The notes below the pieces were generated by a model. The model saw nothing but the letters and a program-made list of their open reading frames with translations, was not told the DNA's origin and did not search any database. A DNA stretch of 38,006 bases from Acetobacteraceae bacterium (lineage in GTDB: Bacteria > Pseudomonadota > Alphaproteobacteria > Acetobacterales > Acetobacteraceae): the NCBI GenBank assembly GCA_009693865.1, contig SHWL01000028.1:1-38006 (forward strand). The letters are read 5' to 3'. The translations under genes and the position numbers were made by a program. Within the stretch, counting starts at the first letter, position 1. Each line of letters starts with the position of its first letter. Positions 2,826-29,123 of this stretch are shown piece after piece.

Positions 2826-3129
2826 CGTCCATCTCGACCACCGCGCCACCATTGATCCGGGTCCGCAGCACATGACTGGGCCGGAACACCAGCACCCGGC
2901 GAGGCAGGATGGGCACCTCTTCGCCGGTTTTCGGATTGCGGCCGACGCGGCGCCCCTTCTGCCTCACAGAGAAGGTTCCGAACCCACTGATCTTAACGGA
3001 TTCTCCCGCTTCTAAAGTCGATCTGATCCGGGTCAGAACGCTTTCCAGCAGATCGGCGCATTCGTTCCGCGACAGGCCCACCTCGGCATGAATGATATCG
3101 GCCAGATGGGCACGGGTCACGGTGAGCAT
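2815..3129 (-). CDS. ihfA: Integration host factor subunit alpha
   Basis: IHF-alpha pairs with IHF-beta to bind and sharply bend specific DNA sites in the nucleoid, acting in replication, recombination and transcription. The 104-residue product has the HU/IHF fold throughout: [60 protein letters not shown] and the arm region [18 protein letters not shown]. The GRNPKTGEE signature, with the Pro that intercalates into DNA, is intact. The tail ends in MDDDD. It precedes and overlaps the MerR-type gene on the same strand. The alpha rather than beta assignment rests on the EVGLSR N-terminus and the neighbour. Confidence 0.95.
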
Positions 3130-3280
3130 CCGGTAACCTTATGGGCGGTGAGGCCAATCGTCAACAAACTCCGGGGAAAATCGCCCAGGATCAGAGGCTT
3201 GCGCGATCATCTCGTGGTTCGCGCGCAAGGTGGGGCCGCGCTCTCCCCAAGCCGCGCGGATCGTGGGATGGTCTTGTGGC

Positions 3281-4132
3281 ATGAGCATAACCGATCCCGG
3301 CCGTCTCCCTTCCGGCCGTTTGGCCGAATGCCGCGCTGCCTACGCGAGCGACGTCGTGGCGCGTTTCGGTGGCCGTGACCAAGCTGTCGTCGCGGCCTTC
3401 GCCAAGGTCCCGCGCGAGCCGTTTCTCGGACCGCCGCCTTGGTCCATCGGCGGCCGAGGCGATGCGTTCTGGTCCGAGACCCGCGATCCCGCGGACGTGT
3501 ACCAGGACCGGCTGGTCGCGCTGGATCACGCGCGGGGCATCAACAACGGCCAACCCTCACTCCATGCCATGTGCATCGAGGCTCTGGGCCTGACGCCAAC
3601 CGAACATGTGCTGCACATCGGCGTGGGCACGGGTTACTACACCGCGATCCTGGCCGAATGCGCCGCGTCGGTGGATGCGTATGAAATCGAGGCGGACCTC
3701 GCGGAGCGCGCGGACGTCAATCTTCGTCCCTGGCCGCGGGTCGCGGTCCACGCGGAAAGCGCCACCGGGCGGCCCTTGCCGGACGCGGACGCGATCTATG
3801 TCAGCGCGGGCGCGTCCGCCCCCGATCCGTTCTGGCTCGATACGCTTCGGGATGGCGGGCGTCTGCTGTTTCCACTGACGGCCGATGACGGGCGGGGTGG
3901 CATGCTGCTGGTGACGCGGCGGGGAACGGCTTTCGCCGCTCGTTTCCTGGGACCGGTCTCGTTCATTCCCTGCATCGGTGCTCAGGATCCACAAGCTGGC
4001 GCGCGTCTGCGGGTGGTGTTTCAGGGTGGCGGGGAGGACGCCGTGCGATCCTTGACCAGAACACCACCGTCTGTTGCCTCTGTCTGGTTCGCGGGCGACG
4101 GATGGTATCTGTCGACCGCTCCGGCCCCATGA
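3281..4132 (+). CDS. Protein-L-isoaspartate O-methyltransferase (PCMT) family protein
   Basis: A 283-residue SAM-dependent methyltransferase of the PCMT family, whose classic members methylate L-isoaspartyl residues in aged proteins. The SAM-binding motif HIGVGTGYYTAILAE is clear, followed by the acidic strand SVDAYEIEADLAERA and the family pattern of a strand leading to GGRLLFPL. Upstream sits VPREPFLGPP and, at the usual substrate-loop position, NNGQPSLHA, which departs from the canonical sequence, so the true substrate may differ. ATG 3281 is preferred over the GTG/ATG at 3230 because it begins a typical N-terminus. The next gene starts inside its stop codon (ATGA at 4129-4132), so the two are probably co-translated. 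Confidence 0.8.
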   Translation: MSITDPGRLPSGRLAECRAAYASDVVARFGGRDQAVVAAFAKVPREPFLGPPPWSIGGRGDAFWSETRDPADVYQDRLVALDHARGINNGQPSLHAMCIEALGLTPTEHVLHIGVGTGYYTAILAECAASVDAYEIEADLAERADVNLRPWPRVAVHAESATGRPLPDADAIYVSAGASAPDPFWLDTLRDGGRLLFPLTADDGRGGMLLVTRRGTAFAARFLGPVSFIPCIGAQDPQAGARLRVVFQGGGEDAVRSLTRTPPSVASVWFAGDGWYLSTAPAP

Positions 4133-4695
4133 GCGGCGGGGATCCTGTCCTGGTAAACGTCCCGCTGCTGGACGCGGTGGCCGAGCCGCCGCCGCACGCG
4201 CGGGTTCGGGCGTTGAAGAAGCACCTGATCGGTGCGTTGCGGGACCTTCGCGTGGCCAAGCGGCCGGACAAATTGATCCAGACTCCAACCCGGGAGCCCA
4301 CCGGCTTCACCGCGACAGTTCTGGCGGCGGGGTGCGCCACCTGCCAGGGACATTGCTGCATGGGCGGTGGCGAGCACGCTTATATCGACGAGCGCACCAT
4401 GGCTCGTGTCCGGTCCGACCATCCCGGCCTCCCGGAGGGCGCGGTCATCCGGTTGTTCCTGGACCGCATCGCGCCGCTGTCTTATCGCGCGTCATGTCTG
4501 TTTCATGGACCCGAGGGCTGCACGCTTGGCCGGGGATTACGTGCTGAACTGTGCAATGCCTATTATTGCAATGGTTTGCGGGATTTCCTGAAACTCGGCC
4601 CGGTAAGCGGTCCGGTTCGGATCGTCGCGGCGCGGGATGGACGGGAGCGGCGATCGCCTGTTCTCCGGCCGGGTGAATTCAACGATCCCGCGTGA
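4129..4695 (+). CDS. YkgJ-like cysteine-cluster protein (putative Zn/Fe-binding)
   Basis: This small protein of 188 residues has eight cysteines in two groups: CATCQGHCC followed by MGGGEHAYID, then CLFHGPEGC and ELCNAYYC. This matches the general CxxCxxxCC...C...C layout of the YkgJ/zinc- or iron-chelating family, whose biochemical role is poorly known. The N-terminal 60 residues are basic and unremarkable. The start ATG overlaps the stop of the PCMT-like gene in an ATGA junction, so the pair forms an operon. The sequence shows metal-binding potential only; the metal is not determined. Confidence 0.65.
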   Translation: MSGGDPVLVNVPLLDAVAEPPPHARVRALKKHLIGALRDLRVAKRPDKLIQTPTREPTGFTATVLAAGCATCQGHCCMGGGEHAYIDERTMARVRSDHPGLPEGAVIRLFLDRIAPLSYRASCLFHGPEGCTLGRGLRAELCNAYYCNGLRDFLKLGPVSGPVRIVAARDGRERRSPVLRPGEFNDPA

Positions 4696-4764
4696 CCGTC
4701 TCGTGACACCGGTGGAACCGCTGGTTCGCCGATGCCCGCGGACGCTCGAAGATAGCGCGCGGTC

Positions 4765-4793
4765 TTGACTTTTCTGTCCTATATTCCGATACG
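4765..4793 (+). promoter_or_regulatory. Possible sigma70-type promoter before the helicase gene
   Basis: A good -35 hexamer TTGACT (4765-4770) is followed after 17 bases by GATACG (4788-4793), a weak -10 element. It lies in the 150-base gap ahead of the RNA helicase. The downstream half is poor, so this is only a candidate. Confidence 0.3.
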
Positions 4794-4846
4794 AGGCGCG
4801 TTCTGGGCTGGTTTGCGTATGACGCCTCGCCAGGTTCCCGGTCGCC

Positions 4847-6856
4847 GTGGTCCGGACCACGGCCGTCACAACGACTGGATCCAATTTGAACGACACTGAT
4901 CCCGCCCAGGTGGAGCAGGAAGCAAGCTTGTCCGAGCCGAATGGGGCCGCGGCGACGCACGATCCGATTGCCGAATCCGCGTCCGAAGCGGCCGCGCCGG
5001 ATGATCACCCCCATACACCCGACGCCGGATCCGCCGCGGACATGGCAGGGACTGGCAAAACCGAGCCTGTCGACGATCCTCAAATCATCGAGCCGAAAAT
5101 CGGCGACGATGACCCGGATGACGATGACCCGGATGACGATGAGGATGACGCCGGGTACGCGTCGCATCTGGCCGCGCCGGACGAACCGGCCCGCGCGCTT
5201 TTCTCCGATCTCGGCTTGTCGGAACCCGTGCTGCGGGCGATCGCGGACATGGGCTACCGTCACCCCACGCCAATCCAGGAACAGGCGATCCCCATCGTTC
5301 TGATGACCCGCGACGTGTTGGGCGTGGCGCAGACCGGCACCGGCAAGACCGCCGGATTCACGTTGCCCATGCTGGATATTCTGGCCGGCTCGCGCGCCCG
5401 CGCCCGCATGCCGCGCAGCCTCATCCTGGAGCCAACCCGCGAACTGGCGTTGCAGGTGGCGGAGAATTTCGTTCAGTACGGGAAATACCTGAAACTCACG
5501 CACGCCTTGATCATCGGCGGCGAGAGCGTGTCGGATCAAAAAGACGTTCTGAACAAAGGCGTCGACGTGCTGATCGCCACGCCCGGCCGCCTGATCGACA
5601 TGTTCGACCGCGGCACGATCCTGCTGACCGACACCCGCATCCTGGTGATCGACGAAGCGGACCGGATGCTCGACATGGGATTCATCCCCGATGTCGAGCG
5701 GATTGTCTCGCTGCTGCCGAAGACGCGCCAGACGCTGTTCTTCTCGGCGACGATGGGGCCGGAGATCAAGCGGCTCGCCGACGCGTTCCTGCAAAACCCG
5801 AAGGAGATCTTCGTCACCCGCCAGGCGTCGGTCGCGCCGACGATCAGGGAGGGGCTGGCGCTGGTCGCCGAACACGACAAGCGGGAAGCGCTGCGGCGGC
5901 TGATCCGGACGCAGAATGTTCAAAACGCGCTGATCTTCTGCAACCGCAAGACCGAGGTCGATATTCTGCATAAGTCTCTGGTGCGGCATAAGTTCGACGC
6001 GGGCGCGCTGCATGGCGACATGGCGCAGACCGTGCGCTTTACCACGTTGGAAAAATTCAAGGCCAACGAGTTGCGGTTGCTGGTGTGCAGCGATGTCGCC
6101 GCGCGCGGTCTGGATATCATGGGCCTGTCGCACGTCTTCAATTTCGACGTGCCGCACCACGCCGAAGATTACGTCCATCGCATCGGCCGCACCGGCCGCG
6201 CTGGGCTTGAAGGCCATGCCTTCACCATCGCGATGCCGGAAGACCGCATGGCCGTGAGCGCGATCGAGCGGCTGATCGGGCATTCGATTCCGCCGATGAT
6301 CGTCGAAGGACTCGACCCCGTCGATTGGTCGGAGGGCGACAGCCGCAAGCGGCGTGGACGGAAAGCGCCAGCCGGTGCGAGGCCCCCCGCGAAGACCGCC
6401 GCGCGTGGCAGACGCCCCGAGCCGGGAGCCGAGCGCGCGCCTCGGGTTCGTGCCGCGCCATCGCCCGTCCCCGTGTCGGCCGAGGCGCCGGATGGGCCTG
6501 TTTCTGACGCGGAAGCGCCCGCGCGGATGCGCGAGGAGGCGGCGCGATCCCGTGAGGCGGCGCCGAGGATGCGTCCGCCCAGAGAGGAACCGAGACGAGA
6601 GGAACCGAGACGCGAGGAACAGAAGCGCCCTGAACCCAGGCGGGACGAATCCAGGCGGGACGAATCCAGGCGGGAGACGCCGGTTTTCAGGGATCGGCCC
6701 CCCGAGGGGCGTCCCCAGGGGCGCACCGAGGGACGCCCCGACCGGTGGCGCCGGGACGACGATCTGGGTGCCTCGGTTGTCGGGTTCGGCAACGACGTTC
6801 CCGCTTTCATGATGGCGCGCCGCCGCCCGGCGCCGGTGCCGGAGGCCGACGCGTGA
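4847..6856 (+). CDS. DEAD-box ATP-dependent RNA helicase, RhlE type
   Basis: This helicase unwinds RNA duplexes with ATP and probably acts in ribosome assembly or RNA turnover. All motifs are present in order: Q motif ([14 protein letters not shown]...[10 protein letters not shown]), I (AQTGTGKT), Ia (PTRELALQ), Ib (TPGRLID), II (IDEADRML), III (SAT), IV (ALIFCNRK), V (ARGLDI) and VI ([10 protein letters not shown]). The core is flanked by a roughly 115-residue acidic N-terminal extension with a nearly pure Asp/Pro run around residues 88-102, and by a C-terminal tail of about 160 residues rich in Arg, Pro and Glu with tandem EEPRR and RRDES units, a likely RNA-binding tail. The GTG at 4847 is the longest start; TTG 4886 is an alternative. 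It overlaps the next gene by 4 bases. Confidence 0.9.
6580..6680 (+). repeat. Short tandem repeats coding the Arg-rich helicase tail
   Basis: Within the helicase 3' end the units GAGGAACCGAGACG and, just after, AATCCAGGCGGGACG recur in tandem two to three times, encoding EEPRR and RRDES repeats. Such repeats can vary in copy number between strains by slippage. Confidence 0.6.
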
Positions 6857-8058
6857 ACGGCCAGCCCGTGAAATCCACCAGTCAATTTACCCCGTTTCAG
6901 TGGGACGACGCGCTGCGCCTGGACTCGGAATTGTCCGAGGACGAACGCGCGATCCGTGACGCGGCCCATGCGTTCTGCCAGGAGAAACTCTTCCCGCGTG
7001 TTCTGATGGCCAACCGGTTGGAAAAATTCGACCGCGAAATCATGAACGAAATGGGCGAGATGGGTTTCCTGGGCGCGACCCTCGACGGTTATGGATGCGC
7101 GGGGGTAAACTACGTCAGCTACGGCCTGATTTCCCGTGAGGTCGAACGCGTCGATTCCGGTTACCGGTCCGCGTTTTCCGTGCAGTCCTCGCTGGTGATG
7201 TTCCCGATTTACACGTTCGGAACGGAGGCGCAACGGCAGAAATATTTGCCGAAACTGCGCACCGGCGAACATGTCGGGTGTTTCGGTCTGACCGAGCCCG
7301 ACGCGGGCTCCGATCCCGCGTCCATGCGCACGCGCGCCAAGGCGGTCGATGGCGGGTTCGTGCTGAACGGATCGAAGACCTGGATCACCAATGCGCCGAT
7401 CGCCGATACGCTGGTCGTGTGGGCCAAAGACGACAAGAACGATATCCGCGGTTTCATCCTCGAACGCGGGATGCAAGGACTGACGCAGCCGAAGATCGAG
7501 GGGAAATTCTCGCTGCGCGCGTCGGTCACCGGCATGATCATGATGCAGGACGTGTTCGTTCCGGCCGAGAACATGTTTCCCGAGGTGAAGGGGCTGCGCG
7601 GTCCATTCTCCTGCCTGAACAACGCTCGCTACGGCATCGCCTGGGGCGCCCTGGGCGCCGCCGAGTTCTGCTGGCACGCGGCGCGGGACTACACGTTGCA
7701 ACGTATGATGTTCGGCCGCCCCCTCGCGGCGACGCAGTTGATCCAGAAGAAACTGGCGGACATGCAGACGGAGATCACCCTCGGTTTGCATGCGGTACTT
7801 CGCCTGGGACGGCTGATGGACGCGCATGAGGCGGCGCCGGAAATGATCAGCCTGTTGAAGCGCAACAACTGCGGCAAGTCGCTGGATATCGCCCGTATGG
7901 CGCGCGATATGCACGGCGGCAACGGTATCGCCGACGAATATCATGTCATCCGCCACGTGATGAACCTGGAAACGGTCAACACCTATGAGGGCACGCATGA
8001 CGTGCATGCGTTGATCCTCGGGCGGGCGCAGACGGGTATTTCCGCGTTTGGAGGGTGA
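6853..8058 (+). CDS. gcdH: Glutaryl-CoA dehydrogenase (acyl-CoA dehydrogenase family)
   Basis: A FAD enzyme that oxidises and decarboxylates glutaryl-CoA to crotonyl-CoA in lysine and tryptophan degradation. The 401-residue protein matches the family in length and motifs: [13 protein letters not shown] (flavin and substrate binding), [35 protein letters not shown] and the C-terminal [21 protein letters not shown]379 in YEGTHD is the expected catalytic base, placed as in characterised glutaryl-CoA dehydrogenases rather than in other acyl-CoA dehydrogenases. GTG 6853 overlaps the helicase stop (GTGA); GTG 6868 is an alternative start. The overlap suggests co-translation with the helicase although the functions are unrelated. 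Confidence 0.9.
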
Positions 8059-8431: not shown

Positions 8432-9802
8432 ATGTTCCAAGCCCATCCGGCTACGTTCATGCTAACCCCGTCCCGGCCATCGTCGCGGTACAATCCGAAT
8501 TCTGCCCGTCCCGCGCCGCCCGAATCGGTCACGGCACACATCACCCATATTGGCGCCGACGGCGACGGCATTGGCGTTCATGCCGATGGCTCAACGCTTT
8601 ATGTCCCGCTGACCGTACCAGGCGACATCGTTCGCGTTCGTCCGCTCGCCCGCCGCGGCGAAGGCTGGGCCGCGGAAATTGAAGACATCGAGCACCCGGG
8701 CCCAGGCCGCCGGGAACCAGCCTGCGGGCATTTTGGTGTGTGCGGTGGCTGCACGTCGCAGCATTGGGATGACGCTGCTTACCTCGCATGGAAAACGTCT
8801 CGCCTGACCGAGGCACTGCGCCGCGCGGGTTATGACAACCCCCCCATGGCGCTGATCGTGAGCGGAGTCGCGGGAACGCGGCGCCGAATGGACCTCGCGC
8901 TACGCCGGATTCAAGGCGGCATGGTCGCCGGCTTACATCGCGCCCGCGGCGGCGAGGTCGTCGATATCGAAGAATGTCCCGTTCTGCACGCGACATTGTT
9001 CCGCCTGATCGCGCCATTCCGTGCCTTATCGACCAGCCTCAGCGCGATCCGGCGCGAGGCGTCGCTGGCCGCCAATCTGCTTGATAGCGGTCCCGACCTT
9101 CTGCTTCGCACCGACGGCGAACTGACCCTCCCGGACCGCACCAAACTCATCGCTTTCGCCCACACTCACCGACTTCCAAGAATCTCCTGGGCTTTTGGCA
9201 ACCGGCCAACGGAGGCCGTGTGCATCTTGAACCCACCGGTCATGACGTTCTCGGGCGCGACGGTCGTTCCGCCTCCCGGAGCGTTTCTCCAGGCCACCGT
9301 GGAGGGAGAAGCGGCGATCGTCGCGGCGGTCCTGGACGGTCTGCCCACGAAACGGACCGCCCGGGCCCGGGTGCTGGAACTTTACTCCGGCTGCGGAACG
9401 ATCAGCTTCGCGTTGGCAGAACGGATCAGGGTGCTTGCGATCGAGGGCGACGCGGAGTTGGTGACCTCGTGTCACAACGCGATCAACCAGGCCGGGCTGA
9501 TGGGGAAAGTGGAAATCAATCGCCGCGATCTCGCCCGGCAGCCGTTTTTGGCAAAGGAACTGGCGGCCTTCACGGCGGTGGTTCTCGATCCGCCGCACGC
9601 GGGCGCGGCGGCGCAAATGCCGCATATCGCACAGGCGAAAGTTCCCACCGTGATTTATGTCAGCTGCGATCCCGTGTCCCTGGGCCGCGACGCAACGGAA
9701 CTACACCGCGCGGGATACCGGTTGGAAAAGGTAACCCCGATCGATCAGTTCCTTTGGTCCGCGCGGTTGGAGGCGGTGGCCGTGTTCAGGTTGGGACGAT
9801 AA
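8432..9802 (+). CDS. 23S rRNA (uracil-C5)-methyltransferase, TrmA/RlmC/RlmD family
   Basis: This SAM-dependent RNA methyltransferase makes 5-methyluridine. A TRAM RNA-binding domain covers about residues 33-90 (HITHIGADGDGIGVHADGST). Then come the Fe-S ligand cysteines (CGHFGVCGGC and the later ECPVLH), as in RumA/RlmD. The catalytic part has the SAM motif LELYSGCGTISFALA, the VVLDPPHAGA loop and the nucleophile Cys in IYVSCDPVSLGRD. The 456-residue length is normal. ATG 8432 and ATG 8459 are both possible; neither has a clear Shine-Dalgarno site. Which uridine it modifies cannot be told from the sequence. Confidence 0.88.
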   Translation: MFQAHPATFMLTPSRPSSRYNPNSARPAPPESVTAHITHIGADGDGIGVHADGSTLYVPLTVPGDIVRVRPLARRGEGWAAEIEDIEHPGPGRREPACGHFGVCGGCTSQHWDDAAYLAWKTSRLTEALRRAGYDNPPMALIVSGVAGTRRRMDLALRRIQGGMVAGLHRARGGEVVDIEECPVLHATLFRLIAPFRALSTSLSAIRREASLAANLLDSGPDLLLRTDGELTLPDRTKLIAFAHTHRLPRISWAFGNRPTEAVCILNPPVMTFSGATVVPPPGAFLQATVEGEAAIVAAVLDGLPTKRTARARVLELYSGCGTISFALAERIRVLAIEGDAELVTSCHNAINQAGLMGKVEINRRDLARQPFLAKELAAFTAVVLDPPHAGAAAQMPHIAQAKVPTVIYVSCDPVSLGRDATELHRAGYRLEKVTPIDQFLWSARLEAVAVFRLGR

Positions 9803-10193
9803 AACCGCCCTGACCGTTCCCCCGCGCCATCTCGCGGCGCGCGATCGCGATCCGGCACCCGGGGTTCGCCGCGAGGTTCCCTCCTGGCATGCACGCGTCG
9901 CCGATCGTCAACTCCATGCCGTGCTGACGCGCGACGGCGGCGGCGAGCGCCGGTCCAAGGCCGCTGCCGGGCGTATGCCGGCTCGCCTCGGTCCGGTAGA
10001 ACCGCTTCAGCACGGCGTCGCGCTCCTCCGGCGGAATACCCGGCCCGGAGTCTATCACCTCGATACCGATCATGTCGGCCCGGGCGAAACTCCGTACCGT
10101 GACGACGCTGCCGCATGGGGCAAACTTCAGCGCATTGTTCAAGCGATTCCCGACAGCCGCGAACAGCAGACTCGGGTCGCCGCGCGTCATCAC
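9786..10193 (-). pseudogene. Sensor histidine kinase remnant (HATPase domain only)
   Basis: The 135-residue frame encodes only the catalytic ATP-binding end of a two-component sensor kinase. The N box is GNRLNNALKFAP, the G1 box VIDSGPGIPPEER, the F box RFYRTEASR and the G2 box GSGLGPALAAAVARQHG. No membrane sensor, HAMP or phosphoacceptor His domain is found upstream: the same frame runs back through plausible sequence (PGPDPHAVMTRGDP) but meets a stop near 10306, and no response regulator is nearby. It ends convergently, overlapping the rRNA methyltransferase gene by 17 bases. I take it as a degraded gene end; a stand-alone ATPase domain is less likely. Confidence 0.65.
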
Positions 10194-10360
10194 CGCGTGA
10201 GGATCGGGCCCAGGGATCGGACGTGACGTCGATGAACCATGCGCATCAAGCGGCCCCGTTCCCGCCCGAGGGGAGCCTGTGATCGGGCGAAGCCTGGAAG
10301 AAGTTCAACGAGGACCATCCGGAAGTCATCGGTGACTGATCGCTGACGTCCGAGCCGACC

Positions 10361-10395
10361 AAAACCCGCCGGACATCGAATGTCCGGCGGGTTTT
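10361..10395. terminator. Rho-independent terminator hairpin
   Basis: Perfect 16-bp inverted repeat AAAACCCGCCGGACAT / ATGTCCGGCGGGTTTT with a CGA loop, flanked by A-run on one side and T-run on the other, so it can work in both directions. On the plus strand it follows, after 23 bases, a stop codon (10335-10337) ending a short coding-like tail (EAWKKFNEDHPEVIGD), whose gene body is missing. Confidence 0.85.
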
Positions 10396-10566
10396 GCGTT
10401 CGCGTCCCCGGCGGCTTCCGTGTCGTATACAAAGCGGAATACGGCAACCAGAAAGCCGTCCGCATTTACGATCGCTTAACCTGTTGGTGTCAGAGTGTCC
10501 GTCACGCTCTCCGTCGGGTCAGGTTCCTGGTCCGCCGATGGGCAGAGAATGACAGGGACAGGACGC

Positions 10567-11667
10567 ATGACGCGACTGCCGCCGGCTGATACAATCGCAT
10601 TGTTCCCGCAGGACGTCCTGGGGCTGCTGGATATCGGCGTCGTGCTGCTCGGCCCGGACATGCGTGCCCGGTTCATCAACAAAAGCTACCTGGAAATCTG
10701 GCATGTTCAGCGGGCGCGGTTAGGGCCGTTCCCGCTGTTCCGCGATCTTCTGGCCCAAACCAGGGATTGTTTCCCGCGGGACATGGATGCGCCCGAGATC
10801 GCCGATCATTTGGACAATCAGGCGGCCGCGGTTCGCGCCGGTGCGATCCCTCCCGCCCAAATCAAACTGGCCGGCGGGCGGCACGTGCAGTTCAGTTGTG
10901 CCGTTTGCCCCGATGGCGGGCGCGTACTGACTTACACCGATATTTCTGAGGTGGTGCGGCGTGAGGTCCAGGAGGCCGTGGACCAGATCGACGCCGATCT
11001 GCGATTTGGCAACGAACTCATGGAGAACCACGCGTCCTCGCTGGCCACTCTGGCGGAGGCGGCGGACGAAAGCGCCCGCTCGGTAGAGGCCGCGAGGCTG
11101 GAACTCGAACGTGAAATCGCCGAACGCCGTGAGTTGGAGGCGCGGTTACGCCATATGGCGACGACGGATGGGCTGACCGGCGCGTTGAATCGAGCGGCGT
11201 TTCTTGCGGGCGGGCAGACGGAACTCGATCGGGCGCGCGACTCCGGTCACGCGCTCGCGCTGCTGATGATCGACGTCGATCACTTCAAGGCGGTGAACGA
11301 CCGGTATGGCCACCCCGGCGGCGACCTCGCGCTGCGGCATCTGGTCACGACGCTGCGCTCCGAGGTGCGGGGGAGCGACCTGCTGGGACGATTGGGCGGC
11401 GAGGAATTCTCCCTCGTGCTGCCCGCCACATCGCCCGAGGAGGCGGAGCGTGTGGCCGAGCGGCTTGTGGCCCGGGTCGCCCGGACCCCGGTGCCCTTTG
11501 GCGATAGGCTCATTCATATGACGATCAGTGTCGGTCTGGCGATCGCGGACAAGCAGGAATACTCCATCGAGCAGATTACCGGGCGCGCCGATACCGCGCT
11601 GTACCGTGCCAAGGGCGGCGGGCGAAATCGCATGGTGGTCGATCGGCGCGCGGAGGTGGTTTTCTGA
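10567..11667 (+). CDS. Diguanylate cyclase with N-terminal PAS-like domain
   Basis: This enzyme makes the second messenger cyclic di-GMP from two GTP. The 366-residue protein has a PAS-like sensor region (about residues 15-130, DIGVVLLGPDMRARFINKSY to VLTYTDISEV), a coiled-coil linker with heptad-like Leu/Glu/Ala (about 135-197, ending ERRELEARLRHMATTD), and a GGDEF domain from about 200. The active-site signature GGEEF (277-281) is intact, and RGSD five residues upstream is a canonical inhibitory I-site, so product feedback is expected. There is no signal peptide or membrane segment. ATG 10567 is chosen for its AGGA upstream; ATG 10549 and GTG 10495 are possible. It stands alone after the terminator at 10361. 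Confidence 0.88.
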   Translation: MTRLPPADTIALFPQDVLGLLDIGVVLLGPDMRARFINKSYLEIWHVQRARLGPFPLFRDLLAQTRDCFPRDMDAPEIADHLDNQAAAVRAGAIPPAQIKLAGGRHVQFSCAVCPDGGRVLTYTDISEVVRREVQEAVDQIDADLRFGNELMENHASSLATLAEAADESARSVEAARLELEREIAERRELEARLRHMATTDGLTGALNRAAFLAGGQTELDRARDSGHALALLMIDVDHFKAVNDRYGHPGGDLALRHLVTTLRSEVRGSDLLGRLGGEEFSLVLPATSPEEAERVAERLVARVARTPVPFGDRLIHMTISVGLAIADKQEYSIEQITGRADTALYRAKGGGRNRMVVDRRAEVVF

Positions 11668-12907: not shown

Positions 12908-13555
12908 ATGCCCGCTCGAACGCCTCGCCCCATTCCCGCGCATCCTGACGCGATCGTCGAGTCCCAGGAACGTGCCTGGTCCGGCCGTTACGCGGTCGAT
13001 GTCGTCCGCTTCCGTCACCGTCGCTTCGATGGCGCGATGTCGGATGTTCGCGCCTGGGAACTCTGGCGCCGGGGCCGCGCCGTCGCCATGGTTCCATACG
13101 ACCCCGTCACGGACTGCGTGGTGCTGATCGAGCAGTTTCGTTTCCCCGCCCTCGCCGCCGGGATCGATCCGGTGCTGGTCGAACTCCCCGCTGGGCTGAT
13201 TGAGGACGGCGAGGACCCCGAGCTCGCCATGCATCGCGAGCTGCACGAAGAAATGCGGCTGGAAGCCGATCGCCTCGAAAAAATCGGCACCTATCTGCTG
13301 ACCGCCGGTGCCTCCGACGAATTGCTGGACCTGTATATCGGCCGTGTCGTCGCGCCCACCGCCGGGCCTGACGGCATCGCGGGACATGCCGGGGCCGAAG
13401 CTGAGGGCGAGGACATCCGCGTCCGCGTTTGGCCCGCCGACAAGGCGATCGCGCTCGCGTTGTCCGGCGCGGTGCCGAACAGCGTCACGACGATCGGTCT
13501 GTTATGGCTGGCCGCGAAACGAGACATTCTTCGAAAGCAATGGAGCGAACCGTGA
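12908..13555 (+). CDS. Nudix hydrolase, ADP-ribose pyrophosphatase-like
   Basis: A 215-residue Nudix enzyme, probably hydrolysing ADP-ribose or a similar nucleoside diphosphate sugar. The Nudix box spans G96 to L118 (GLIEDGEDPELAMHRELHEE...) and keeps the metal-binding RE-x-x-EE residues, but the Gly near its end is Arg117. The following TAGASDELLDLYIGRVV resembles the loop of ADP-ribose pyrophosphatases, and the preceding VLIEQFRFPALAAG and VELPAGLI are typical of that subfamily. The next gene begins in its stop codon (GTGA at 13552), indicating co-translation. Confidence 0.85.
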   Translation: MPARTPRPIPAHPDAIVESQERAWSGRYAVDVVRFRHRRFDGAMSDVRAWELWRRGRAVAMVPYDPVTDCVVLIEQFRFPALAAGIDPVLVELPAGLIEDGEDPELAMHRELHEEMRLEADRLEKIGTYLLTAGASDELLDLYIGRVVAPTAGPDGIAGHAGAEAEGEDIRVRVWPADKAIALALSGAVPNSVTTIGLLWLAAKRDILRKQWSEP

Positions 13556-14874
13556 TCAGAGACGCCCAGGAGCAGGCTGTTACGGGGGCGACGGCGGAGT
13601 CTGTCGCGCTGTACGATCAGGCCGTCCGTGCCTTCAACCTCGTCTGTGGCGACACGCTGCGTTTGTTCGATGCGGCGCGGCAGGCCTCACCCGGCTTCGT
13701 AATGGCGCATCTTGCAAAAGCCTGGGCTTTTGCTCTGGCTCGCGACCCTGGCCTTACGGCGCAGGTCCGGACGCTGATCGAGACGGCCGCGCCGTTGGCG
13801 ATGAACGAACGGGAAAGCGCGCACCTGGCGGCGTTGCGGCATGTGGCGGACGGTGCGCTGCATGACGCGGTGCTGGTTCTGGATCGCCATTTGATGCGGT
13901 ACCCGTTCGATATGGTGGCGCATCAGGTCGCCCTCTTGCTCGACCTGTTGCAGGGGCGGGTCCGATGGATGCGGGACCGGACAGCGCGCGCTTTGCGGGT
14001 CTGGTCGCCGGACATGCCGGGTTATCCGGTGTTGCGCGCGTTGCATGCGTTCGGGTTGGAGGAAAATGGCGATTACGCCCGCGCCGAGGCCGAATCTCGC
14101 GCCGCCCTGGAAGGTGAGCCGCTGATGCATTGGCCGCATCACACCGTCAGCCATGTCATGGAAATGACCGGCCGACCGGAAGATGGGCTTGGCTGGATGC
14201 TGGCGCGCGAGGCGTCGTGGTCGACGAAAGGCCACGCCAATCAGGCGCATATCTGGTGGCACCGCGCGTTGTTTCATATCGAGCTGGGGCAATACGATGA
14301 GGCCTTGGCCCTTTACGACGGGCCAATCCGCGCGACGCAACGGCCGATCGGGGTCAGCCTCACCAATGCCTCGGCGTTGCTATGGCGGCTTTCGACAATT
14401 GGCCACGACGTCGGGGACAGATGGCGGGACGTGCTGACGACGTGGGATGGCCATGCCGATGGCCGCCACGGTGTGTTCAACGACCTGCACGCGGCGATGG
14501 CGGAACTGGGCGCGGGCGAGGCGGCGGCGACCGAACAGCGCCTGACCGCGATGCGCGACACCGCCGAGAGCGATAATCCAGCGGCCGCGACATACCGTGA
14601 GGCGGGGGTGCCGCTGGTCGAGGGGTTGCTGGCGTTCCATCGCGGGGCTTACGAGCAGGCGGTCGCGACGCTGGTTTCCGCGCGATTCGAGCTGTGGCGG
14701 ATCGGCGGCAGCCACGCGCAGCGCGATGTCGTCGACTGGACTCTGACCGAGGCCGCGATCCGCGGCGGACTCCGCGATACCGCCTTGTCGCTGGCGCATG
14801 AGCGGCTGGCAGCTCGCCCGCGCGATCATGTGAACCGGCTGTTCCTGAGCCGCGCCGAAGGGATCGCCGCATGA
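13552..14874 (+). CDS. TTC38-like tetratricopeptide repeat protein
   Basis: A 440-residue helical-repeat protein resembling the TTC38 family, widespread but of unknown role. It contains repeated TPR-like helices: [78 protein letters not shown] and [20 protein letters not shown]. The conserved family segment [20 protein letters not shown] with clustered His is present. No signal peptide or catalytic motif is evident. GTG 13552 overlaps the Nudix stop and has GGAG 6 bases upstream; ATG 13540 is an alternative. Its stop codon overlaps the ATG of the left copy of a 17-bp repeat that duplicates the start of alaX. Confidence 0.8.
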
Positions 14875-14886
14875 CCGAGCGTTTGT
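14870..14886 (+). repeat. Left copy of 17-bp direct repeat bracketing the ATPase-nuclease module
   Basis: CATGACCGAGCGTTTGT is identical to 16637-16653, where it forms the start of alaX. Here its ATG overlaps the stop of the TPR gene (ATGA) and would encode MTERL before reading into unrelated sequence and a stop 26 codons on (14946-14948). Upstream, GGAT is also shared at the same distance from both ATGs. Confidence 0.85.
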
Positions 14887-15034
14887 CCACGAGCGCATTT
14901 CGCGGTCCTGGAGGATGTATGACGGCCCCTTCCTGGGCCGGGTTCTGATATACGATGCGAATCGTCCGAACGGCGTGCTCGGTTCGACCCATGGTCATTG
15001 TTCGCGATTCCGGCATAACACCCGGGAGGCAATC

Positions 15035-16084
15035 TTGCTCAAGCGGATGACCGTCAGGAATCTGACAGTGTTTCCCGAGGTGGATTGTCAGTTCGGCCGG
15101 AATCTGAACGTTGTTGTCGGCGAAAACGGTACTGGCAAGACCCACTTGTTGAAGATGGCGTACTCCGTGCTGGCGGCGAGTTGGGAAGAAAGCCGTAAGC
15201 CGAATGCCGCGGCGCCGACCAAAGCGTTGCTTCAGTCACGGCTGGCCGAAAAGCTGATCAATGTCTTCCGTCCCGAGCATTTGGGACGCCTTGTCAGCCG
15301 CCAGCGTGGGCGCGCGAGGTGCGATATTGCTGTCGAGTGCGAGCCTGAAGAGGCGAATGTCTCATTCAGCTTCGGAACCATCAGCAAGCGAGAAGTCGCC
15401 ATCGAGAAATTGCCGGAACGTTGGATCGAAGTATCTCCGGCCTGGTTTCCGACCCGTGAATTATTGACGATCTATCCGAATTTCGCGTCGATTTATGAAA
15501 GCCGCTACCTGGAGTATGAGGAAACGTGGCGGGACACCTGCCGGCTTTTGGGCGAACCGCTCCGGCGTGGTCCGCGCGACCACATTGCCGATACCCTGTT
15601 GGTGCCTTTGGAAGACGCGATGGACGGCAAGCTCGTTCTGGAAAACAACGGAAGATTTTATCTCAACGGCTCAAAAGGCAACATTGAAATATCCTTGGTC
15701 GCGGAAGGCTTGCGCAAATTCGGTATGCTTGCCCGCCTGATCTCCAATGGCACATTGCTCAATAACTGCTATCTGTTCTGGGACGAACCGGAGGCAAATC
15801 TCAATCCGCGCCTGGTCGCGAAACTCGCGGACGCGATTGTCGGTCTGAGTGTGGTGGGGGTCCAGGTGTTCATCGCGACTCATAGTCTGTTTTTGCTCCG
15901 AGAGTTTGAAATGCTCCTGGGCTCGCGAAACCATGAGGCCTACGATGCACGCTTTTTTGGTCTCCATGCGGAGAAGGATGGCGTTCGTATCGATCAAGGC
16001 TCTTCCATTGACGACGTTGGCGATATCGGTTCGCTCGACGAAGAACTGGCCCAGTCGGATCGATATATGAACAGTGAGATTTGA
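15035..16084 (+). CDS. AAA_21/ABC-type ATPase of a putative two-gene defence module
   Basis: A 349-residue ATPase of the OLD/RecF-like ABC class, with no membrane domain. Walker A is GENGTGKT (residues 29-36), a signature-like [17 protein letters not shown] lies near 220-236, Walker B with the catalytic Glu is [14 protein letters not shown] (D250, E251), and the H-loop is IATHSLFLL (His283). The start is set at TTG 15035 by a GGGAGG site at 15024-15029; ATG 15047 is an alternative, and the frame open from 14915 lacks support. The gene ends 2 bases before the nuclease-like gene, so the two are coupled. Base composition seems lower in GC than the neighbours (30 of 60 in 15661-15720). Together with its partner it resembles ATPase-plus-nuclease anti-phage systems; function is inferred. 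Confidence 0.85.
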
Positions 16085-16086
16085 AC

Positions 16087-16614
16087 ATGCCGCGAGTCAA
16101 CGTGGATGGCCTGATTTTTGAATTTCACGATATTTGGACGGTCAGCAAATACGATGAGTGGCGGTTTTACCGGGACAGACTGATCCCCACGGGGAATGAT
16201 TTGAAAGCTGTCGATCTTCTTGCGATCGGTCCTGATCGGGCGGGATGGCTGATCGAGGTCAAGGACTATACGAAGATGGAAATCGGACGGGAAGATCGGC
16301 CCCCGGCAAGCGATCTCGCGCGGTTCGTTGCCCGCAAGATCTTCGATACGTTGGCGGCGATCCTGTTGGCGAGTATGAGCGCATCCGACGGCCGCGAAAA
16401 GAGCGTGGCCTTGTCGATGACGAACGCCACCAGGCTGAGGGTTGTTTTGCATCTTGAACAACCGGCAAGGAAATCTTCCGTATGGTCACGGACAATCGAC
16501 CCCGCGAACATTCATCAGAAATTGAGGCGTCTATTGAAACCAGTCGATCCCCGGGTCATCGTCGCGAGCATGAGACAGATGGGTCGCTGCGACTGGGACG
16601 TCGTCCGCCCATAA
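16087..16614 (+). CDS. PD-(D/E)XK nuclease-like protein, partner of the ATPase
   Basis: A 175-residue protein with a restriction-endonuclease-like signature: Asp43 in LKAVDLLAIGPD and Glu57-Val-Lys59 in WLIEVKDY, the D-x(n)-ExK arrangement of PD-(D/E)XK nucleases. An aromatic N-terminus (VSKYDEWRFYRDRL) precedes it; a helical stretch (LARFVARKIFDTLAAILLAS), a strand (ATRLRVVLHLEQP) and a C-terminal helix (PANIHQKLRRLLKPVDP) follow. No named domain is recognised beyond the nuclease core. ATG 16087, with GAG 8 bases before, lies 2 bases after the ATPase stop. DNA cleavage is an inference from the motif; another role such as sensing is possible. Confidence 0.7.
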   Translation: MPRVNVDGLIFEFHDIWTVSKYDEWRFYRDRLIPTGNDLKAVDLLAIGPDRAGWLIEVKDYTKMEIGREDRPPASDLARFVARKIFDTLAAILLASMSASDGREKSVALSMTNATRLRVVLHLEQPARKSSVWSRTIDPANIHQKLRRLLKPVDPRVIVASMRQMGRCDWDVVRP

Positions 16615-16636
16615 CCGCACGCGGAAAGGATGACTA

Positions 16637-16653
16637 CATGACCGAGCGTTTGT
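16637..16653 (+). repeat. Right copy of 17-bp direct repeat, at the start of alaX
   Basis: Identical to 14870-14886. Here the ATG is preceded by AAGGA seven bases upstream, supplied by the inserted DNA, so it serves as the working start of alaX. Confidence 0.85.
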
Positions 16654-17357
16654 TTCTGGATCAACCCTCTCTGCCGCGCACCGAGGCGCGTGTCATCTCC
16701 GCCGCGCCCGAGGGCATCGTGCTGGACCGGACCGTGTTCTACGCAAGGGGCGGCGGCCAACCTGGCGATACCGGCGTGCTGCGGTGGGACGGCGGAGAGA
16801 CCCGGATTTCCGACACGGTAAAGGGCGAGGGCGACTCGATCCTGCATGTCCCGGAACCGGAGGCGGAATTGCCTCCACCGGGAACGCCGGTCAACGCCGA
16901 AATCGACTGGGATCGCCGCCACAAGCTGATGCGGATGCACACCGCGATGCATCTGCTGTGCAGCCTGATCAAAGGCGCGGCGGTGACCGGGGGCTCGGTT
17001 GGCGCGGACCGCTCGCGGTTGGATTTCGATTTGCCCAATCCGCCGGCCAAGGACGAGATCGAAGCCGGGCTGAACGCGCTGATCGCGGCGGATTACCCGG
17101 TGCGGATCGAGTGGGTGGACGAGGCGGTCCTCGATACCGATCCTGGCCTCGTTCGGACGATGTCGGTCAAACCGCCGCGCGGCACCGGCCGGTTGCGCCT
17201 GATGCGGATCGGTGAGGGCGATGTCGTCGATCTGCAACCCTGCGGCGGGACGCATGTCGCGCGCACCGGGGAAATCGGGCCGATCCGGATCGTGAAGATC
17301 GAGAACAAGGGCCGGCAAAACCGCAGGATCATCCTGGCACCTCGCGATCCACCCTGA
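16638..17357 (+). CDS. Alanyl-tRNA editing protein (AlaX-type)
   Basis: A free-standing editing domain related to alanyl-tRNA synthetase, which removes Ser or Gly wrongly attached to tRNA-Ala. The 239-residue protein has the N-terminal beta-barrel (VLDRTVFYARGGGQPGDTG) and the zinc ligands HxxxH (H101, H105 in RMHTAMHLL) and CxxxH (C202, H206 in PCGGTHVART), all intact. There is no aminoacylation domain. ATG 16638 is the start of the 17-bp duplicated sequence, so its 5' end was apparently rebuilt by insertion of the upstream ATPase-nuclease module. Sulfur-metabolism genes follow on the same strand 58 bases on. Confidence 0.9.
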   Translation: MTERLFLDQPSLPRTEARVISAAPEGIVLDRTVFYARGGGQPGDTGVLRWDGGETRISDTVKGEGDSILHVPEPEAELPPPGTPVNAEIDWDRRHKLMRMHTAMHLLCSLIKGAAVTGGSVGADRSRLDFDLPNPPAKDEIEAGLNALIAADYPVRIEWVDEAVLDTDPGLVRTMSVKPPRGTGRLRLMRIGEGDVVDLQPCGGTHVARTGEIGPIRIVKIENKGRQNRRIILAPRDPP

Positions 17358-28194: not shown

Positions 28195-28467
28195 TCAAGA
28201 TTGGCCATAATGAGACCGGCAGTATACAATTGTCACACTCTGATCGTCGTCCTTGCCGGACACACGGTATACAATCCGGTGTTCTTTGTTGATCCTTCGT
28301 GGCCAGCAACCGGAAAGCGGTTTTTTCAGGGGCTCCGGCTTTCCGGTGCCGGTGAAGGGACTCCTGCGAATGTCTTCGATCAATTGAATGATCTTGCGCA
28401 TTGTATCGACGTCCGATTGCCACGACAGGAAGTGATCCCATCCAACGACCGTAAAATGAACCCTCAC
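28195..28467 (-). CDS. yoeB: YoeB/Txe family toxin (RelE superfamily mRNA interferase)
   Basis: A 90-residue ribosome-dependent mRNA-cleaving toxin. It matches the YoeB family from end to end (WDHFLSWQSDVDTMRKIIQL, PEPLKKPLSGCWPRRINKEH, RIVYRVS, YCRSHY) and keeps the catalytic set Glu45, Arg64 and His86, so it should be active. GTG 28467 overlaps the stop of the upstream antitoxin-position gene (GTGA), the standard coupling of yefM-yoeB pairs. The partner gene is unusual: only its C-terminal part looks like YefM. Confidence 0.92.
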   Translation of the reverse strand: MRVHFTVVGWDHFLSWQSDVDTMRKIIQLIEDIRRSPFTGTGKPEPLKKPLSGCWPRRINKEHRIVYRVSGKDDDQSVTIVYCRSHYGQS

Positions 28468-29123
28468 GTGGCCGGACGATGGATGGCCGCGACAGAATTA
28501 TATTCGTTTGTCATGTCCTGTGCATCCGAATGAGCTGATTGCACAAGTGTTACCAGATTTCCGGTGTCGCACATCAGGTAGGCTGTTTCGTGCCAGCTTT
28601 CGACTTCATCGAGCGGGGCGGACATGAGTGTCTCATTGAAGTCTTGAGGAAGATTTGTGTTCTCCACGCCTCGCCGTTCGGCGCGCAGATAGACCTCTTC
28701 AATTACCATCAGCCGAAGCCGCCGAATATGTGGCAGGTAGTCACCGCGCATGTCACCCAGGAACCGTTGAATGTCAAAAAATATGGCGCCATCCGAGGCG
28801 GCATTCACAAGAGCCTGGAATTTCGGTTTCATGACGCGATTGACCATATCGGCCCCTTCCGCCAGAACCCGCTCGGTTATACCCAGGCAATCGAGCGAAT
28901 CCCGCAATTGGACATCCGACCCGGCTTCCACGGAACCGCTGAATGTCTTGATTTCCGTCCATCCATTCTCGAAAGCAAGACGAAATTCTTTCATCGCGTC
29001 CCGCACGCGCTGTATCGCCGCGTTAATCTCAGGCTGACCATCGGCTAAGGCAACTCCGGCAACCGAAATACCGAAACCAATCATCTCGGGGGCCAGAAGG
29101 AAGTTCGTTGGCACCGCGGTCAC
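28464..29123 (-). CDS. Chimeric antitoxin: unknown N-terminal domain fused to a YefM-like toxin-binding tail
   Basis: A 219-residue protein occupying the antitoxin position before yoeB. Residues about 166-197 (LMSAPLDEVESWHETAYLMC... to LVQSA) match the YefM C-terminal half, where ETAYL and the following N-x-x-x-L segment wrap YoeB. The usual 50-60-residue Phd/YefM DNA-binding domain is missing; instead residues 1-160 form an unrecognised, mostly helical sequence with a mildly hydrophobic start (FLLAPEMIGFGISVAGVALA). GTG 29123 has a strong AAGGAG seven bases upstream, so the long form is the genuine product and not a spurious extension. It is co-translated with the toxin. How it is autoregulated without a YefM domain is unclear. 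Confidence 0.72.
   Translation of the reverse strand: MTAVPTNFLLAPEMIGFGISVAGVALADGQPEINAAIQRVRDAMKEFRLAFENGWTEIKTFSGSVEAGSDVQLRDSLDCLGITERVLAEGADMVNRVMKPKFQALVNAASDGAIFFDIQRFLGDMRGDYLPHIRRLRLMVIEEVYLRAERRGVENTNLPQDFNETLMSAPLDEVESWHETAYLMCDTGNLVTLVQSAHSDAQDMTNEYNSVAAIHRPAT

Follow-up and report, generated by a model that had tools for sequence, protein, structure and literature searches.

The question raised by this locus is whether two adjacent genes in the window (the whole 38,006-nucleotide stretch of DNA that was analysed) form an anti-phage defence system and, if so, whether that system already has a name. The original prediction was that an ABC-type ATPase and a small nuclease form a compact, mobile defence module for which no named system could be found, and that the nuclease appears to be a family of its own.

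The gene pair in the window

The upstream gene (15035 to 16084, + strand) encodes a 349 amino acid ABC ATPase, the putative sensor or regulator, which was characterized using PADLOC, AF2 and Foldseek. The downstream gene (16087 to 16614, + strand) encodes a 175 amino acid PD-(D/E)XK-like protein, the putative nuclease effector, which was characterized using PADLOC, AF2 and conservation. The two genes are on the same strand and separated by 2 nt, as originally described. The ATPase begins with TTG, and GGGAGG lies 5 nt upstream of it. The TTG at 15035 was taken as the start because it is supported by the N-terminal consensus of the family, MLKxLxIKNLTVF. The ATPase has a Pfam match to AAA_21 (60.8 bits), and the Walker A, Walker B and H-loop motifs read from the sequence at the outset are intact, with K35, D250/E251 and H283 all present.

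The base composition is also as first noted. GC content is 55.6% across 14887 to 16619 versus 63.5% for the window as a whole, and only 3/726 segments of this length (step size 50 bases, segments covering the cassette itself counted) are equally low. Promoter and terminator scans produced no excess over shuffled sequences. A 219 amino acid ORF (28464 to 29123, − strand), possibly another acquired gene, lies in the window's second stretch of low GC content (∼55–56%).

Both genes match the HEC-02 models

Models of PADLOC-DB 2.0 match both genes, so the pair can be assigned to a named candidate defence system, HEC-02. The ATPase matched PDLC04146 HEC-02B over residues 1–347 (476.7 bits, E 9.3e-144). 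For the nuclease the match was to PDLC04145 HEC-02A over residues 5–171 (131.1 bits, E 1.1e-38). The labels A and B swap roles between PADLOC model sets. The window pair resembles HEC-02 in that both models are matched, the ATPase gene precedes the nuclease gene, and the genes are adjacent. It differs in that it is not inside an Hma operon, the setting in which this kind of candidate was discovered, no Hma gene being recognised among the window ORFs. The idea of a nameless new system was rejected on these matches.

The HEC candidates were reportedly defined in a 2024 preprint by Payne et al. HEC stands for Hma-embedded candidate (PMC12988326, PMC10855318, PMC12111858). Several HECs, including HEC-06, are described as active in the defining preprint (PMC12988326), and HEC-04 activity is reported in PMC12111858. 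A search of 5.39 million open papers, a scope that excludes preprints, found no paper on HEC-02 in this sense; the sole match was an unrelated paper on nano-silver. The pairing of an OLD-ABC ATPase with a PD-(D/E)XK nuclease is itself already known and in print (PMC12137116, PMC12839542), which is a further reason why the pair cannot be called unmatched.

The nuclease

The view of the nuclease as a family of its own must likewise be given up. It has no Pfam or NCBIfam family, yet all 61 aligned nuclease sequences, the window's included, match the same PADLOC HEC-02 model, so the family cannot count as undescribed. Pfam gave nothing above the cut-off for the window nuclease, with NERD below threshold (18.1 bits against a cut-off of 22.1), and NCBIfam gave no match for it or for any of the 61 aligned sequences. 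At E 0.01 the 61 sequences produced a few matches, to pPIWI_RE_REase (4), NERD (3) and DUF6661 (3).

The key residues of the nuclease are D23, D43, E57, K59 and K84. The D43...E57-x-K59 motif lies where the original prediction placed it, and its residues are kept in 60, 61 and 61 of the 61 sequences, respectively (window included); D23 and K84 are invariant in the same set. When 18 divergent sequences were added, D43 was retained in 78/79, E57 in 79/79, K59 in 78/79 (one has Arg), and K84 and D23 in 79/79 each. In one divergent nuclease outside the 79-sequence set (L137), Thr replaces the motif Lys.

The AlphaFold model of the nuclease has a pLDDT of 94.1. D43 immediately precedes a strand, the next strand holds E57 and K59, and K84 falls in the helix that comes after it. 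A strand with the Asp, a strand with E-x-K and a helix is the order of elements expected of PD-(D/E)XK enzymes. Foldseek comparison of the model with the PDB found no chain at E 0.001. A hyaluronidase ranked first (E 0.05), followed at rank 2 by the highest-placed nuclease, Shedu SduA (8ps5; E 0.06, TM 0.30, rmsd 8.6). A sequence-profile search of the PDB likewise gave nothing significant for the nuclease (best E 0.34).

Profile comparisons were made with NERD (8 of 10 picked proteins), with proteins found as weak NERD matches, which we presume to be YraN-like (15 of 17), and with Mrr (18 proteins). The sequences left out of the NERD and YraN-like sets came from loci that had cut ends or contained a stop. 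Each half of the ATPase alignment served as a control. NERD aligned with the D...E-x-K motif in register at E 0.0016 (61 sequences) and 0.0007 (79 sequences), and the YraN-like proteins did so at E 0.0045 and 0.0006, versus E 0.15 and 0.29 (61 sequences) and 0.46 and 0.13 (79 sequences) for the controls. Mrr reached E 0.022 with 61 sequences and 0.15, no better than the controls, with 79. The 18 divergent sequences alone gave E 0.0001 for the YraN-like proteins, 0.022 for NERD, and 0.076 and 0.54 for the controls; in that comparison NERD barely surpassed the better control. The hhalign probability against PD-(D/E)XK families was at most 56%. The nuclease likely has a PD-(D/E)XK fold, because the motif is conserved, the model is confident and the weak profile matches are in register. 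The predicted fold draws partial support from these weak profile matches, and no solved structure matched significantly.

The ATPase

K35, D250, E251, E224, G225, K228 and H283 are invariant in 68/68 aligned ATPase sequences, counting that of the window. The AF2 model has a pLDDT of 92.7. In the Foldseek search of this model, ranks 1–4 were occupied by chains of Septu PtuA and rank 5 by Rad50; the nearest structures are PtuA, Rad50 and SMC heads, with TM about 0.5. The P-loop region has RecF/RecN/SMC-type similarity in Pfam and NCBIfam. The longest helix between the Walker motifs has 19 residues in the model. Rad50 or SMC identity was rejected, as the model lacks a long coiled coil in the stretch from Walker A to Walker B.

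The next-best PADLOC profiles after HEC-02 were AriA (62 bits), PD-T4-4_A (49 bits) and AbiLi; GajA and Old were also matched. Because AriA, PD-T4-4_A and AbiLi are next in line, the OLD type, as the term is used in PMC12137116 and PMC12839542, fits this ATPase, a placement made by the nearest PADLOC profiles only.

Conservation of the two genes as a pair

A scan anchored on the ATPase and covering 84,980 species, with one genome per species, yielded 201 relatives, and the top 80 were retained. Nuclease sequence, whole or partial, lies directly downstream in 76 of these best 80 ATPase loci, a count obtained with a nuclease profile that had been refined on those same loci. The exceptions, with no adjoining nuclease, are L021, L041, L067 and L076. 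In a search across phyla the ATPase was found in 24/398 genomes. Nineteen loci besides the window's own were fetched from this search, with ATPase identities of 31–56%, and 17 of them carry the nuclease downstream, 14 with a 4-nt overlap; L139 and L144 have none. The two genes are therefore conserved as neighbours, which was the test proposed for the original claim of a pair.

The same arrangement was found in the other direction. The ATPase is directly upstream in 5/6 nuclease-anchored loci (L003, L006, L007, L134 and L135). The sixth, L004 (E 6e-4, 28% identity), was taken as spurious by judgement and dropped, because its match falls inside a 336 amino acid ORF on the other strand.

The distances of the two proteins are correlated across 62 loci (r 0.76, whereas 2000 permutations reached at most 0.24), a value not controlled for species relatedness. 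Neighbour conservation and correlated divergence mean that the pairing of the ATPase and the nuclease exceeds chance. In every close pair of relatives for which it could be computed, dN/dS was below 0.5 for both genes; these pairs did not include the window copy. The genes are thus under purifying selection in the relatives.

The pair is widespread but uncommon. Its relatives come from many phyla, and some copies are on plasmids. The nuclease was detected in 3/200 genomes of the family (one of them spurious), 1/346 of the order and 3/337 of the class, with the window's genome counted each time. In the ATPase tree the smallest well-supported set containing the window copy has 27 members, from Pseudomonadota, Cyanobacteriota, Chlorobiota and Myxococcota. 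A window ATPase placed among several phyla fits transfer.

The state of the nuclease was surveyed in 84 ATPase-bearing loci (L008–L091), all fetched with the ATPase query. The nuclease covers at least 80% of its profile in 63/84, is broken or absent in 14/84, and is cut by the contig end in 5/84; L081 and L083 have single nuclease ORFs with partial profile matches and were counted in none of these groups. In L019, L036, L044, L055, L062, L064, L066, L074 and L082 the ATPase is intact and the adjoining nuclease is broken by a frameshift, stop or deletion; the nuclease fragments of L019, L036, L044, L055 and L064 miss the active-site region. Because the ATPase was the query for all these loci and some of the frameshifts may be sequencing errors, the 14/84 does not establish a greater tendency to lose the nuclease.

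Probable insertion at a gene junction

The pair is carried on a low-GC cassette (14887 to 16636) that is missing between the same two genes in three genomes of the same genus. The insert is 1.75 kb and stands alone at the gene junction. The pair are the only genes recognised inside it, and no recombinase was recognised within it. It is bounded by a 17-bp exact direct repeat. The left copy (14870 to 14886, + strand) is the end of a 34-nt repeat (14853 to 14886), and the right copy (16637 to 16653, + strand) belongs to a 34-nt repeat (16620 to 16653) and lies at the start of the alaX-like gene. The two 34-nt copies are 82% alike. No third copy of the 17-bp repeat was found in the genome sequence (81% complete) with one mismatch allowed.

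The left flanking gene (13429 to 14874, + strand; listed ORF start uncertain) is TPR-like by inspection, and the left repeat overlaps with its stop codon (ATGA). The right flanking gene (16638 to 17357, + strand) is, also by inspection, putatively AlaX-like, a type that functions in alanyl-tRNA editing. Both look like ordinary genes, and no defence gene was recognised beside the window pair.

All 33 genomes of the genus, the window's included, match some part of a 4.9-kb query, and the ATPase was found in 2/33, one of these being a fragment. The site is empty in 3/9 flank regions that were retrieved; the pieces retrieved for the remaining 6 do not have the TPR gene next to alaX. In G418 the flanks adjoin without the insert, at GCATGACCGAGCGTTTGT. 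In G307 and G319 the flanks are 54 and about 94 nt apart in the alignment, again without the insert. The simplest reading is a precise gain of the insert at this site, and repeated precise loss through the repeat is possible. G307 has an ATPase fragment elsewhere (contig C131, L123/L127) that covers query residues 41–225 with 64% identity and has no nuclease that could be found; it is perhaps an independent gain followed by decay.

The claim of a compact, mobile defence module therefore holds for the conserved two-gene pair and its mobility, and a defensive role is plausible, but the window copy has no recognised defence gene beside it.

Genomic neighbourhood of relatives

Some relatives are found within defence operons. 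In Endozoicomonas (L038) the gene order is HmaB-ATPase-nuclease-HmaC. In Desulforhopalus (L041) it is HmaA-HmaB-ATPase-HmaC, with no nuclease, and in L067 the ATPase again precedes HmaC with no nuclease. Two plasmid copies are in BREX operons. The Methylomonas plasmid (L215, pair at 9001 to 10616) has BrxC-ATPase-nuclease-PglX, and the Polaromonas plasmid (L217, pair at 5992 to 7611) has PglX-ATPase-nuclease-one gene-PglZ. Both plasmid pairs match the HEC-02 models, and their annotations read simply ATP-binding protein and hypothetical protein.

A defence neighbourhood is not the norm, because no PADLOC family matched more than 2 of 121 neighbour ORFs (mechanically called, from 32 of the 80 loci), among the matches listed, which comprise 25 of the 95 families matched at E 1e-15. 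The commonest Pfam matches among the neighbour ORFs were metabolic.

Some long ORFs were seen beside individual pairs. L013 has an ORF of 1195 amino acids (3101 to 6685) upstream of its pair, with matches to mad3 (172 bits) and LmuB (126 bits). In the Methylobacter loci L008, L010 and L012 an ORF of about 1,360–1,390 amino acids follows the pair; that of L008 had no PADLOC match at E 1e-10. A glutamine amidotransferase is upstream of the pair in L008, and L010 and L012 look alike.

A few contigs classed as viral do carry the pair. Among 50,697 phage records none matched the nuclease, and scanning viral contigs with the nuclease as anchor confirmed no locus. An ATPase-anchored scan of viral contigs produced five loci (L088–L092). 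L088 and L090 have a full nuclease, the nuclease of L089 is cut by the contig end, and L091 has none. L092, a partial ATPase match, was dropped. Two unannotated fecal fragments labelled ‘Bacteriophage sp.’ have a distant ATPase (32–33% identity).

Comparison with characterized systems

By its published description, WonAB is similar in design, a two-gene operon of an OLD-type ABC ATPase and a small PD-(D/E)xK nuclease (PMC12137116). Judged by residue numbers only, the Walker A to Walker B spacing is 266 in WonA (K34–E300) and 216 in the window ATPase (K35–E251), about 50 residues less, and WonA also has C-terminal extensions (PMC12137116). WonAB is described as aborting phage infection, with the ATPase motifs and the nuclease Lys both required for defence. 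Its nuclease is toxic only with the ATPase, and translation stops while chromosomal DNA stays intact (PMC12137116).

OLD-ABC ATPases with HNH, PD-(D/E)XK or PIN partners are reported from 594 taxa, in BREX and related contexts (PMC12839542). The BREX-linked OLD-ABC plus PD-(D/E)XK pairs are the same kind of pairing as HEC-02, and L215 and L217 are also in BREX operons. The name HEC is absent from the main text of that paper, and the likeness is at the level of the pairing, the exact subfamilies not being matched.

Septu (PtuAB) also combines an ABC ATPase with a nuclease, and PtuA is the best structural match of the window ATPase. However, PtuB is an HNH nuclease and the window partner had no PtuB match at E 1. 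PARIS (AriAB) and PD-T4-4 have related ATPases, as the AriA and PD-T4-4_A scores given above indicate, but the PARIS partner is a TOPRIM nuclease and the window partner matched neither AriB nor PD-T4-4_B at E 1. Septu and PARIS identities were rejected on the partner. Septu is reported to cleave tRNA-Tyr (PMC13096335) and PARIS to cleave host tRNA (PMC12839542).

Proposed function

Judged from sequence and by analogy, the HEC-02 pair is probably an ATPase-gated anti-phage defence module. The OLD-type ABC ATPase would sense infection, and its binding or hydrolysis of ATP would control the PD-(D/E)XK-type partner. Infection would activate the nuclease, and the cell or the phage would be stopped, as in abortive infection. 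Complex formation, the trigger, the nuclease activity and its substrate, and the defence phenotype are what we infer. The analysis itself shows intact motifs, a conserved operon, correlated divergence and, in relatives, purifying selection, together with relatives inside Hma and BREX operons and an insert that is missing from this site in relatives. The RNA target is the least secure of these steps. WonAB, Septu and PARIS suggest by analogy that RNA such as tRNA may be likelier than chromosomal DNA, a proposal we make tentatively and at somewhat less than even confidence.

The pair could instead act on DNA directly, with the ATPase recognising foreign or replicating DNA and the nuclease degrading the invader so that the cell survives. 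This alternative shares the module with the preferred explanation and differs in target, so that the odds of the two overlap. The placement of the ATPase by PtuA, Rad50 and SMC heads favors it, as do weak matches between the nuclease and families of DNA nucleases (NERD in 3/61 sequences, pPIWI_RE_REase in 4/61, and the YraN-like proteins). We nevertheless consider it unlikely. The ATPase model has no long coiled coil, inspection of the window ORFs by eye revealed no DNA methylase, and WonAB, the nearest tested analogue, is described as sparing chromosomal DNA (PMC12137116).

A toxin-antitoxin or addiction pair, in which the ATPase restrains a nuclease toxin, would account for the tightly spaced two-gene operon, the patchy spread and the plasmid copies, and loss of the toxic part would fit the broken or absent nucleases at 14/84 loci. 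That asymmetry is biased, however, by the use of the ATPase to fetch the loci. The Hma- and BREX-embedded relatives point instead to defence, and the dependence of WonAB nuclease toxicity on its ATPase excludes simple sequestration in that system (PMC12137116). We therefore hold an addiction pair to be quite improbable. Housekeeping DNA repair of the RecF or Rad50 kind is least credible, with very little to recommend it beyond the resemblance of the P-loop region to the RecF/RecN/SMC type. The pair is rare and patchy at every rank from family to class, its site is empty in relatives, and other relatives are within defence operons.

HEC-02 gains a clear anatomy here, comprising residues to mutate and an operon conserved across many phyla. 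The window copy is a complete stand-alone cassette with a known empty site, which makes it a clean test case and provides an easy test of whether small OLD-ABC plus PD-(D/E)XK pairs behave like WonAB. HEC-02 is also tied to pairs embedded in BREX and Hma that carry other names in other authors' catalogues.

As a long shot, HEC-02 might be a minimal plug-in whose ATPase is the sensor and whose nuclease can be discarded, a module able to pass between genomes without its own recombinase, to insert through short homology and to lend its sensor to a host system. Insertion by short homology at a stop/start junction would leave both neighbours intact. The ATPase may even serve Hma directly as a sensor, because the Desulforhopalus locus keeps the ATPase without the nuclease.
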